A DNA stretch of 41,186 nt from an uncultured Elusimicrobium sp. (GTDB taxonomy: Bacteria; Elusimicrobiota; Elusimicrobia; Elusimicrobiales; Elusimicrobiaceae), in the NCBI GenBank assembly GCA_902794125.1, contig CADBFX010000020.1, positions 1-41,186 on the forward strand, read 5' to 3'. Under the pieces are notes generated by a model. It had not been told where the DNA came from. It worked only from the letters and a program-made list of their open reading frames with translations, and ran no database searches. Positions 1-21,528 of this stretch are shown piece after piece (the first letter of the stretch is position 1; every line of letters begins with the position of its first letter). The translations under genes and the position numbers were made by a program.

Positions 1-328
1 AACTTTTACGGACCCGCACTCGCTGGTTGCGCCGGAACTGTTAGGTATTCCGCTTCATCCTACCCAACTATATGAATCTGGGCTTAATTTCTTATTATTT
101 TTTTTACTCCACACGCTTTATAAAAAGCCGCACAAAGACGGTTCTATTTTAGTTTGCTACGTGGCGTGTTATAGTTTTCTGCGGTTTTTTATAGAATTTT
201 TTCGAGGAGACTTTCGCGGAGCGTTTATTTTAGGATTGTCCCCCTCCCAATTAATTTCAATTATTATCACATTACTGGCCGGTGCATTGTGGATACGCAT
301 GGCCCAAAAGGAAAATTCCCATGGCTGA
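1..328 (+). CDS. lgt: Prolipoprotein diacylglyceryl transferase, C-terminal part (cut by window edge)
   Basis: The open frame entering from the left edge (codons in phase with base 2) ends with TGA at 326-328. It carries the Lgt signature HPTQLYE early in the visible part and FLRFFIEFFRGD further on, followed by a final hydrophobic segment. Lgt is the inner-membrane enzyme that moves diacylglycerol from phosphatidylglycerol onto the lipobox cysteine of prolipoproteins. Only about the last 108 residues are visible, so the start and N-terminal half cannot be judged. The stop overlaps the ATG of the pseudouridine synthase at 321, suggesting translational coupling. A probable substrate in this window is the TlpA-like lipoprotein at 38657. 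Confidence 0.9.
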   Translation, partial: TFTDPHSLVAPELLGIPLHPTQLYESGLNFLLFFLLHTLYKKPHKDGSILVCYVACYSFLRFFIEFFRGDFRGAFILGLSPSQLISIIITLLAGALWIRMAQKENSHG

Positions 329-1229
329 TACTAAAAAAATCGTTTTTGACGGCTACTCCCGCCGCTTAGATGTGTTTGTTTCGGACGAACTAGAAAATCT
401 ATCCCGTTCTCTTGTGCAGAAACTAATTAAAGACGGACACGTTACCGTCAACGGTAAAAAAGTAAAACCGTCTTGGCCGCTTACCGCCGGAGAAACGGTG
501 GAAATTACGCTTCCAAAGGCTGCCAGCCAAACCCAATTAAAAGATTTAATTATTCACGACGGTAAAGATTTTTTCGTGTTGATTAAACCCGCCGGAATGC
601 TCGTGCATCCGCAAAGCCCGGTGTGGGAAGAACACCCCGAAACGGTGTTTTCTTCAGAAGAAACATTGGTTTCGGTTATTTTGGCTAATCCCCCCAAAGG
701 TTTTGATACGTCCATGCCGCGCGCCGGCCTAGTGCACCGCCTGGACCGCGAAACGAGCGGCGTGATGGTGGTAGCCAAAACACAAGAATTTCAAGCGGAA
801 ATGGTTTCATTATTTTCCAACCGCGAAGTACACAAAACGTATCACTCGATTGCCTGCGGGGAAGTGCCTAACGACGAAGGCACAATTGACGTGCCGATCG
901 GGCGCATAGCCGGCGGAAAAATAAAAGCCTCCGACGTCGGACGCGAAGCCGTTACCGGCTACAAAGTATTAGAACGCAAAAACGGATTTACGTATATTGA
1001 ACTGTATCCAAAAACGGGCCGCACCAATCAACTGCGCGTGCATTTAAGTTGGCTGGGATACCCGGTGTTAGGGGATTGGTTATATAAAGGGGCAACGGCC
1101 AACCGCTTGATGTTGCACGCCAGGCGCATTGAATTTCAGCATCCCTTAACGGGCAAAATGTTAAGGTTTGAAGCCCCCGTTCCACAAGACTTTTTAGACG
1201 CGTGGAAACGCGTAACAAAAAGTAAATAA
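321..1229 (+). CDS. RluA/RluD-family 23S rRNA pseudouridine synthase
   Basis: This protein of about 302 residues has an N-terminal S4 RNA-binding domain (about residues 10-60, with RLDVFVSDELENLSRS and VTVNGKKVK) and a RluA catalytic domain with HRLDRETSGVMVV, where the Asp is the catalytic nucleophile. The later KTGRTNQLRVHL motif is also typical. It converts uridine to pseudouridine in rRNA; the exact site (RluD- or RluC-like) cannot be told from sequence alone. I chose ATG 321 rather than an upstream GTG at 282 because AAGGA lies 8 nt before it, the S4 domain begins directly after, and it overlaps the lgt stop by 8 nt. A strong terminator follows. Confidence 0.9.
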   Translation: MADTKKIVFDGYSRRLDVFVSDELENLSRSLVQKLIKDGHVTVNGKKVKPSWPLTAGETVEITLPKAASQTQLKDLIIHDGKDFFVLIKPAGMLVHPQSPVWEEHPETVFSSEETLVSVILANPPKGFDTSMPRAGLVHRLDRETSGVMVVAKTQEFQAEMVSLFSNREVHKTYHSIACGEVPNDEGTIDVPIGRIAGGKIKASDVGREAVTGYKVLERKNGFTYIELYPKTGRTNQLRVHLSWLGYPVLGDWLYKGATANRLMLHARRIEFQHPLTGKMLRFEAPVPQDFLDAWKRVTKSK

Positions 1230-1284: not shown

Positions 1285-1323
1285 TGTGCAAAAAGCCCCG
1301 GAAAATCTAACCCTTTTTTTGCA

Positions 1324-1352
1324 TTGTCAGCAGAAAACTAATCTTTTATGAT
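1324..1352 (+). promoter_or_regulatory. Sigma70-like promoter of the candidate small RNA
   Basis: TTGTCA at 1324-1329 and TATGAT at 1347-1352 are separated by exactly 17 bp, a near-consensus sigma70 arrangement. No plausible protein start follows on this strand, but a highly structured stretch and a terminator do. The predicted start of transcription is near 1359. Confidence 0.6.
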
Positions 1353-1363
1353 AGGAATATCAC

Positions 1364-1439
1364 AAGTTTGTTCCGGGGGATAAACGGCTGCAAAGCCGGA
1401 TAAGTTTGTTCCGGGGGATAAACGGCTGCAAAGCCGGAT
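1364..1439. repeat. Perfect 38-bp tandem duplication
   Basis: Copies at 1364-1401 and 1402-1439 are identical and adjacent. Each holds the hairpin CGGCT-GCAA-AGCCG, with a GNRA-type loop. With only two copies and no spacer this is not a CRISPR array. Confidence 0.9.
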
Positions 1440-1597
1440 TAGGAACAACAACGCACACCAGGGGGCAGAGGAGCATTTTACGTGGGGTAAAATATCCTCT
1501 GTGGGATGCAAGAAGCCCCGGCCGGAGTACCCGGTGGGGCTTCTAGATTTCATCCGATCCGGTACCGGGAGGGGACCCGCACACCGGACATTATAAA

Positions 1598-1633
1598 GGC
1601 GCTGCTTCGTGGGAAAAGCAGCGCCCTATTTTT
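1598..1633. terminator. Strong bidirectional terminator
   Basis: Perfect 10-bp arms GGCGCTGCTT (1598-1607) and AAGCAGCGCC (1616-1625) are followed by CTATTTTT on the plus strand and by TTTATAA on the minus strand. It would end the candidate small RNA on the plus strand and the acc-to-GNAT operon on the minus strand. Confidence 0.8.
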
Positions 1634-2744
1634 ATAAATTTTTCTGGTAAATCCGGTAGCGCTTACTTAAATGGCAACCGCACTCCTCTATTCCGCGTAA
1701 CATGCTGGCGTTATCCTCTAACACCCACGAAAGTTCTGCCTCGTTCCACACGGCTACGCCGTGCGTAATAATATGCTTAATTAAAATTAAATCTAATCCG
1801 CGCTTGCGAAATTCGGGCAATACGCCCAACATGATAAGCCGCGCGTCTTTAATCCGTTTCCACACCCATAACGCTTTTAATACTCGCCACGGGTTTTTCA
1901 ATGAACCTTTTAATACTTTTAACACGTGGTTCATGTTGGGAATACAAATGTAAAACCCGGCCGGCACTCCGTTTTCTTCTATCACGCAGGTTCCTTCCGG
2001 CCGCAAAATAGGTTTTAATTCGCGCACGATATCCATAATTTCTTGTTTGGACAAAGGTACAAACCCCCAATTTTCCGCCCAAGCACTGTTGTAAATCGTG
2101 CGTATCATTTCGGCTTCTTCTTCTATTTTTTGCAAATTCAGTTGCCTTAGCGTAATGCCTTGGGCGCGTTCGCACCGGGCGCATATTTTTAAAAACCGTT
2201 CAGAAAATTTGTCGTCCTTTGTGCGGTGAAAAGCGAGCAAATCTTTTATCTTAGTTAAACCGAATTTTTCTAATAAATCTGCGTAATACGGGCGATTATA
2301 CGGCATCATAATAGCTGGCATGGAATCAAACCCATCCACGAGTAGTCCATACACGTGGTTGCTGGACGGATTGGCCGGACCGCGCATAGCACTTACCCCT
2401 TGGGCACGCAACCAATCTTGCGCAGCTTGTAATAAAGCCGTAGCCACGTCTTCGTCGTTTGCACAATCAAAAAAACCAAAAAAGCCGATATTTTCGTGGT
2501 GATATTCATTATGGGCTCGGTTTACAAGCGCCATAATCCGCCCCACCGTTTGACCTTTTTTTTCAGCTAAAAATAAGGCGCGGGTAGCCGTAGTCCAAAA
2601 GGGATTATCTGCCTGCAACAAACGCTTGGTATCGGCTTTTAACTCCCCCACCCAGTACGGGTCGTTTTTATACAAAGAAAAAGGGAAATCAATAAATTCA
2701 CTTACTTCGTAATCGGTCGTAACTTGGCGGATTTGTGCGGGCAT
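1632..2744 (-). CDS. GNAT-fold acyltransferase-like protein; possible bacterial ceramide synthase
   Basis: This is a 370-residue soluble protein. The N-terminal part matches a family I know as a long GNAT-like conserved hypothetical, with the signature MRGPANPSSN...GLLVDGFDS near residues 119-140. The C-terminal part (about 220-365) looks like an acetyltransferase domain, with a GVLPEFRKRGLDLILI acyl-CoA-binding-like loop. Bacterial ceramide synthases are described as GNAT-like proteins encoded near serine palmitoyltransferase. The gene directly upstream here is such an alpha-oxoamine synthase, so N-acylation of a sphingoid base is a reasonable inference, not a demonstrated one. SD AGGAG lies 8 nt before ATG 2744. 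A terminator hairpin sits between it and the upstream gene, so it may be expressed at a lower level. Confidence 0.55.
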   Translation of the reverse strand: MPAQIRQVTTDYEVSEFIDFPFSLYKNDPYWVGELKADTKRLLQADNPFWTTATRALFLAEKKGQTVGRIMALVNRAHNEYHHENIGFFGFFDCANDEDVATALLQAAQDWLRAQGVSAMRGPANPSSNHVYGLLVDGFDSMPAIMMPYNRPYYADLLEKFGLTKIKDLLAFHRTKDDKFSERFLKICARCERAQGITLRQLNLQKIEEEAEMIRTIYNSAWAENWGFVPLSKQEIMDIVRELKPILRPEGTCVIEENGVPAGFYICIPNMNHVLKVLKGSLKNPWRVLKALWVWKRIKDARLIMLGVLPEFRKRGLDLILIKHIITHGVAVWNEAELSWVLEDNASMLRGIEECGCHLSKRYRIYQKNL

Positions 2745-21441: not shown

Positions 21442-21528
21442 GGAGAGGTGGCCGAGTGGTTTAAGGCACAGTCCTGGAAAGACTGCATACGGGAAACCGT
21501 ATCGAGAGTTCGAATCTCTCCCTCTCCG
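21442..21528 (+). tRNA. tRNA-Ser (anticodon GGA)
   Basis: This is an 87-nt class II tRNA. Acceptor arms GGAGAGG/CCTCTCC with discriminator G, D-arm GCCGAGTGGTTTAAGGC, anticodon stem CAGTC/GACTG with loop CTGGAAA (GGA), a long variable arm (TACGGGAAACCGTA) and a T-arm with GTTCGAATC are all present. It reads UCC and UCU. The 3' CCA is not encoded. It has its own promoter and terminator. Confidence 0.97.

Follow-up and report, generated by a model that had tools for sequence, protein, structure and literature searches.

Genomic context and boundaries of the RNA gene

The window analyzed here, a stretch of 41,186 nucleotides, is contig C20 of a 1.43-Mb MAG whose relatives in GTDB are Elusimicrobiota MAGs from gut and rumen, the genus probably being the one named Avelusimicrobium or UBA1436 in that taxonomy. 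Between a gene for an RluD-type 23S rRNA pseudouridine synthase and a convergent gene for a GNAT acetyltransferase, positions 1324-1633 are predicted to form an untranslated RNA gene of about 275 nt with its own promoter and terminator (Table 1). Transcription would be expected to start near 1359 and to end near 1632.

An earlier note on this DNA had described a near-consensus promoter and a strong terminator with no credible open reading frame between them, and all three observations held up. The promoter TTGTCA-17-TATGAT was the top scorer (10 out of 12) among six promoter-like sites found in 4 kb, against 5.7 expected by chance, so that its score alone is not above chance. We consider the promoter to be real because the arrangement TTGNNN-17-TANNNT, with the element CTAAYNNNTTTTT just upstream, was conserved in 12 out of 12 long-form homologues. 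The upstream element was also present 5' of most short forms. Exact matches to CTAAYCNNTTTTTT occurred only four times in the organism's own genome, and only the match at 1304-1320 was found at a small-RNA promoter; none of the other three resembles one, and at least two of them lie inside open reading frames. The terminator hairpin at 1598-1625, followed by a U-rich tail, was the best of the region. As for coding potential, the longest sense open reading frame has 42 aa and the longest antisense one 71 aa, neither being conserved, and no common reading frame was found on either strand among 12 homologues. The 71-aa antisense frame (window 1338-1553, minus strand) overlaps the RNA and, being unconserved, was taken as a chance occurrence.

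Table 1. Coordinates of the RNA gene, its parts and its flanking genes in the window.
Feature	Position	Strand	Basis or remark
RluD-type 23S rRNA pseudouridine synthase (S4 + PseudoU_synth_2)	282..1229	+	Pfam; syntenic in homologues
Promoter element upstream of the -35 box, ATCTAACCCTTTTTTT (consensus CTAAYNNNTTTTT)	1304..1320	+	Conserved in homologues
Promoter: -35 TTGTCA (1324-1329), 17-nt spacer, -10 TATGAT (1347-1352)	1324..1352	+	Scan and conservation
Extra copy of 38-nt 5' module, perfect tandem duplicate	1364..1401	+	Only in the window genome
5' hairpin domain: GUUCC (1408-1412) pairs with GGAAC (1442-1446)	1402..1446	+	Pairing kept in homologues
5' domain, G-rich internal loop strand GGGGGAUAAA	1413-1422	+	
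5' domain, inner hairpin CGGCU-GCAA-AGCCG	1423-1436	+	
Linker G-rich motif CCAGGGGGC (GGGGG; in relatives CACAGGGGAUAAG)	1461..1465	+	Alignment A1
Variable hairpin CAGAGGA/UCCUCUG, inner AUUUUAC/GUAAAAU, loop GUGGG (1482-1486)	1466..1501	+	Fold
Middle hairpin AGAAGCCCC...GGGGCUUCU	1511..1544	+	Corresponds to terminator of upstream unit in L054 and L055
Conserved single-stranded UUUCAUCCG	1548..1556	+	Alignments A4/A5
Core hairpin: outer UCCGGU/ACCGGA, inner CGGG/CCCG, hexaloop AGGGGA (1570-1575)	1558..1588	+	28 homologues
Intrinsic terminator: hairpin 1598-1625, loop CGUGGGAA (GUGGGA 1609-1614), U-rich tail	1598..1633	+	Terminator scan and covariation
GNAT acetyltransferase, convergent flanking gene	1632..2744	-	Pfam; syntenic in homologues; used for tree

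Secondary structure and covariation

The RNA strand folded with an energy of -118.6 kcal/mol, compared with -90.7 kcal/mol in dinucleotide shuffles, a difference of 28 kcal/mol (z -6.0). For 12 full-length homologues, the z-scores of the fold ranged from -5.2 to -8.0. We then compared the structure across 28 homologous sequences, 27 of them distinct. In alignment A5, a covariance-model alignment and therefore fitted to the structure, 91.0% of the cells were paired against 78.2% in shuffles, and both sides had changed in 18 out of 22 pairs. The covariation score of this alignment was 0.548 compared with 0.302 in shuffles, none of 500 being as high, and it was at most 0.21 when the partners were slid. 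Plain MAFFT alignments, which are not fitted to the structure, also revealed compensated pairs, 10 out of 36 with six sequences and 9 out of 13 with 28 sequences. Compensatory base changes together with the lack of a conserved reading frame are what is expected of a structured non-coding RNA.

Conservation is uneven along the molecule. The core hexaloop is WGGGGA in all 28 homologues, and both core stems covary. In the terminator stem, 11 out of 12 pairs covary and the loop GGGA is kept; GGGGA in the core loop and GGGA in the terminator loop are thus invariant or nearly so among the 28 sequences. The variable hairpin differs in sequence among homologues and carries a G-rich loop in most of them. 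The pairing of the 5' hairpin is kept with other letters (GUUCUG/CAGAAC, GCUCC/GGGAGC, GCCCU/AGGGC), and the G-run of the internal loop is kept as well; this covariation was read from individual sequences and is unscored, the automatic alignment being too poor there for pair counts.

The presence of a free-standing RNA gene is strongly supported by the homologues in 28 genomes, the compensatory changes, the conserved promoter and terminator, and its own intergenic location, and a structured RNA gene almost certainly exists at this position. A fortuitous intergenic structure or repeat devoid of function could be invoked for a gene that was predicted from sequence alone. This explanation has to face covariation, single copy number, synteny and a promoter conserved across the protein divergence of the genus; it is already refuted by the covariation of A5 unless the alignment misleads, and its probability is next to nil. 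The earlier note had likewise proposed a free-standing structured RNA gene, and had named conservation and covariation in relatives as the place where the proposal could fail; both were looked for and found.

The same note drew attention to a perfect 38-bp duplication, which is indeed present (1364-1401 is identical to 1402-1439), as are the two copies of TTGTTCC (1368-1374 and 1406-1412) and the single GGAACAA (1442-1448). Since either copy of TTGTTCC is able to pair with GGAACAA, the duplicated module had been read as a possible switch between alternative pairings. This reading does not stand: every homologue has a single copy of the module, so the alternative pairing is confined to the window genome and the switch is left with no comparative support. 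Furthermore, the two copies are identical, which makes both pairings equivalent and provides no distinct signal state. We regard such a switch as a very remote prospect. In the homologues, the pairing that is conserved joins a single GUUCC arm to GGAAC. The duplicate itself may have arisen very recently or may have been created during assembly. Two smaller points of the earlier description need amending. A hairpin capped by GCAA is present in the window, but this loop is not conserved in homologues, and strong stems do follow the duplicated module, although there are four of them, terminator included, rather than three.

Distribution of the RNA in Elusimicrobiota

Within the genus, a plain DNA search revealed five homologues. 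With R1, a covariance model covering the 3' half, this number rose to 28 of the 66 genus genomes, at E-values of about 1e-5 or lower. Two further models, R2 and R3, were built on all 28 homologues and applied to 149 genomes at the level of the order and to 341 at that of the phylum. Exactly the same 28 were recovered with E-values of 1e-12 or lower, followed by a sharp drop to E-values of 1e-5 to 1e-3; since only the top candidates from a permissive first pass are scored in these searches, some distant homologues may be missed. The weak matches outside the genus (E 1e-3 to 1e-5) were rejected as homologues, as they resemble plain terminators or chance matches, one of them lying beside a tRNA. 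In the four best of them, each of which was inspected, the core hairpin is missing, and no fewer than three of the four are plain terminators.

When the 84,980 species of GTDB were scanned for an exact pattern, 26 loci were obtained, of which 17 score 77-97 bits with R2. Thirteen of these 17 are titled Elusimicrobia, and the four titled "uncultured bacterium" have coordinates that coincide with genus loci, so that all 17 true matches are in Elusimicrobiota MAGs. The remaining nine, which do not belong to Elusimicrobiota, reach 18.2 bits at most with R2 and were dismissed as chance matches. No match was found in a viral collection.

The flanking genes are syntenic in homologues. Among the 28 copies, 20 are situated in the interval from rluD to the GNAT gene, at times with an inserted type IV pilin gene, and 24 adjoin rluD and/or the GNAT gene. 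Genus genomes without the RNA have either a short gap between rluD and the GNAT gene or unrelated genes in it. On a tree of the GNAT protein, four changes account for where the RNA is present, compared with a mean of 17.3 when shuffled. This pattern fits a single gain, placed at the root of a clade of 31 rows (98/94), and about three later losses, suggesting vertical inheritance. At four loci the RNA is found elsewhere, near trpS and a peptidase M50 gene (L045), an acyltransferase-like gene (L047), hrcA/dnaK-like genes (L051) or rpsI (L066), the names of these neighbors having been read from the sequences; the RNA has thus moved at times. Type IV pilin-like genes (starting with FTLIELLVVVLI) were observed between rluD and the RNA in L040, L041, L044, L046, L049, L050, L054 and L060, and between the RNA and the GNAT gene in L041, L042 and L046. 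Pilin genes therefore seem to have been inserted repeatedly at this intergenic spot, on either side of the RNA and in several lineages.

One-unit and two-unit forms

The homologues differ in their architecture. The 5' domain of L054 and L055 closes with a terminator of its own, and the core is located behind a second promoter element, CTAAT-T5. These loci are tandems of two promoter-RNA-terminator units, each with a CTAAT-T5 element, and are predicted to encode two small RNAs. The window and its closest kin lack the second promoter, and the terminator of the first unit has turned into the middle hairpin of a single long RNA. In L053 and a large clade of short forms, the core stands alone, with a length of about 95-150 nt. 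From these arrangements we infer the direction of the changes between tandem units, fused RNA and core alone.

Comparison with known RNAs and regulators

At gathering threshold, a search of Rfam 15 detected only two tRNAs in the window (at 21442 and 35470), in agreement with the earlier failure to match this gene to a known housekeeping RNA, and none of the Rfam families reached its gathering score on 16 homologous loci. No work on small RNAs of Elusimicrobiota was found in the literature searched. As far as its sequence can tell, the RNA is a new, previously uncatalogued, structured small RNA of Elusimicrobiota that is restricted to one genus.

The RNA resembles the CsrA-titrating RNAs of the CsrB/Rsm type. 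Like CsrB, CsrC, RsmX, RsmY and RsmZ, it is a free-standing intergenic RNA with its own terminator in which the number of sites varies between species, and it consists of a string of hairpins repeating one short G-rich motif in loops and linkers. The motif is GGGGA/GUGGG here and ANGGA there; the loops described here do repeat a motif with GGA at its end (GGGGA), though this is not ANGGA; short members of the present family have two sites only, and the Rfam CsrB/Rsm models were unmatched at their cut-offs. CsrB proper was rejected, CsrA (PF02599) having been found in none of 41 relatives, with positive controls in E. coli, B. subtilis and T. maritima. An Hfq-dependent sRNA was set aside in the same way, since Hfq (PF17209) was absent from all 66 genus genomes. 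These absences, like that of 6S RNA (RF00013, no Rfam match in the 66 genomes), come from profile searches of incomplete genomes (MAGs) and were consistent over 41 to 66 of them. Post-transcriptional regulation in the genus thus appears to proceed without the usual partners.

Other known RNAs were also considered. 6S RNA is free-standing too and of similar length to the long form, but it was rejected: RF00013 gave no match and the shape is wrong, with modular hairpins here against one long helix with a central bubble in 6S, the short forms being moreover too small. tmRNA, RNase P and SRP RNA are structured and in a similar size range, but no Rfam match to any of them was found at the locus, and the tmRNA gene is on another contig. 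Cyano-2 RNA (RF01702) is an orphan RNA of cyanobacteria (PMC2864571). It shares with the present family two adjacent hairpins, each with a common G-rich loop motif, the loop being WGGGGA here and GAGCGA in Cyano-2. With relaxed thresholds, the only match to any family was that of the homologue L005 to the Cyano-2 model, with 36.5 bits (E 1e-5), the gathering score being 40 bits. None of the 15 other homologous loci matched, and on 61 relatives the model gave one weak match at an unrelated place and none over the cut-off. Identity with Cyano-2 was rejected, as a single homologue below threshold is most likely due to convergence or chance.

A putative sponge RNA presenting a G-rich motif

We evaluated the unpaired G-runs in 12 RNAs of the family. 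Each RNA has two to four of them, compared with 0.35-1.3 in shuffles. The observed count was reached by none of 60 shuffles in six of the RNAs, by one to four of 60 in five more, and by 19 in L040. In L066 the sequence AGGGGA is found in both loops, and in L051 GGGGAA is found in the middle loop. The tandem loci L054 and L055 carry two units with G-rich loops behind similar promoter elements. To judge by these comparisons, evolution keeps the G-rich loop motif (GGGGA/GUGGG) and not the letters of the stems.

Such a pattern could be explained if the stems served only to present a G-rich single-stranded motif (GGGGA, GUGGG) repeatedly, at the 5' internal loop, the linker, the loop of the variable hairpin, the WGGGGA core hexaloop and the terminator loop. 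Several sites per RNA would capture a cellular factor recognizing this motif (an RNA-binding protein is the most likely candidate) and thereby draw it away from its mRNA targets, as happens to CsrA with CsrB/RsmZ. Because CsrA was not found in these genomes, the partner would have to be another factor. The 38-nt duplication would then add one more copy of the 5' site. An action in trans as a CsrB-like titrating (sponge) RNA for a putative partner is our preferred reading, to which we give somewhat less than an even chance. Several observations speak against it. The short forms have only two G-rich loops, which is few for a sponge, and their second loop can partly pair with an opposite UUCC or UUUC. 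In the minimum free energy fold of the RNA from the window, one duplicate pairs with the other, which conceals part of the motif. Invariant G-rich loops would equally be expected of an RNA kissing C-rich RNAs. In about 430 kb of the organism's own genome, start codons showed no surplus of nearby hairpins with a WGGGGA loop, although the partner's sites in mRNAs need not be hairpins.

The main rival of the sponge is base pairing with mRNAs. The G-rich loops and/or the conserved single-stranded UUUUAUCCG would pair, independently of Hfq, with stretches that are rich in C or resemble a Shine-Dalgarno sequence, either in mRNAs or in another small RNA. Other bacteria are known to have sRNAs that act without Hfq and pair through short loops rich in C or G. 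The loops described here are short, unstructured and invariant, like many seed regions, and a U-rich AUCC segment is found 5' of the core hairpin in nearly all members. Against this, when six single-stranded segments were scanned for duplexes with 344 translation starts, five performed no better than shuffled segments, and only the 12-nt segment of the internal loop was about 2 SD better on average; in addition, UCCCC occurs once in 345 start regions. Overall, neither duplex energies nor the enrichment of k-mers around starts gave a clear signal of mRNA targets beyond shuffles in the roughly 430 kb covered, about 30% of the genome. We consider base pairing to be unlikely, while still a serious contender. 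As a separate observation, the top match of the target scan for the GAGGGGA loop was UUUUCCCCCUC, which is complementary to this loop and located about 25-30 nt upstream of the start in a metK-like leader (L173, MIKQGHCFFTSESVSKGHPDKV); it was not beyond shuffles.

Two further explanations have less weight. A housekeeping-type RNA acting on a core machine, either 6S-like on RNA polymerase or associated with the ribosome, would be in line with the strong, constitutive-looking promoter and with a genus in which no 6S RNA is detected by Rfam. It is improbable given that there is no long helix with a central bubble, that the shortest members, of about 95-150 nt, form two separate hairpins, that the gene is missing from more than half of the genus, and that tmRNA is encoded elsewhere in the genome. 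Formation of an RNA G-quadruplex from four or more unpaired G-tracts might be imagined for the long forms, where as many as six G3-G5 tracts lie beyond the conserved stems. The short forms have only two such tracts, and the conserved A after the tract (GGGGA) together with the terminator loop GUGGGA argues for recognition of a sequence rather than of G-tracts alone, which leaves a quadruplex highly improbable.

Returning to the sponge, its most specific version would be a family of titrating RNAs, in one-unit and two-unit tandem forms, that bind a novel kind of GGGGA-loop-binding protein taking the role of CsrA in Elusimicrobiota in which neither CsrA nor Hfq is detectable. In this complete form we propose it tentatively, and rather doubt that every part will hold. 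In these gut bacteria, CsrA is undetected in the relatives searched and Hfq is undetected as well. An RNA that is conserved and displays a single loop motif repeatedly may serve as a bait for finding the regulator. The family would also show a small-RNA gene changing form within one genus, from two tandem units to a fused RNA or to the core only.
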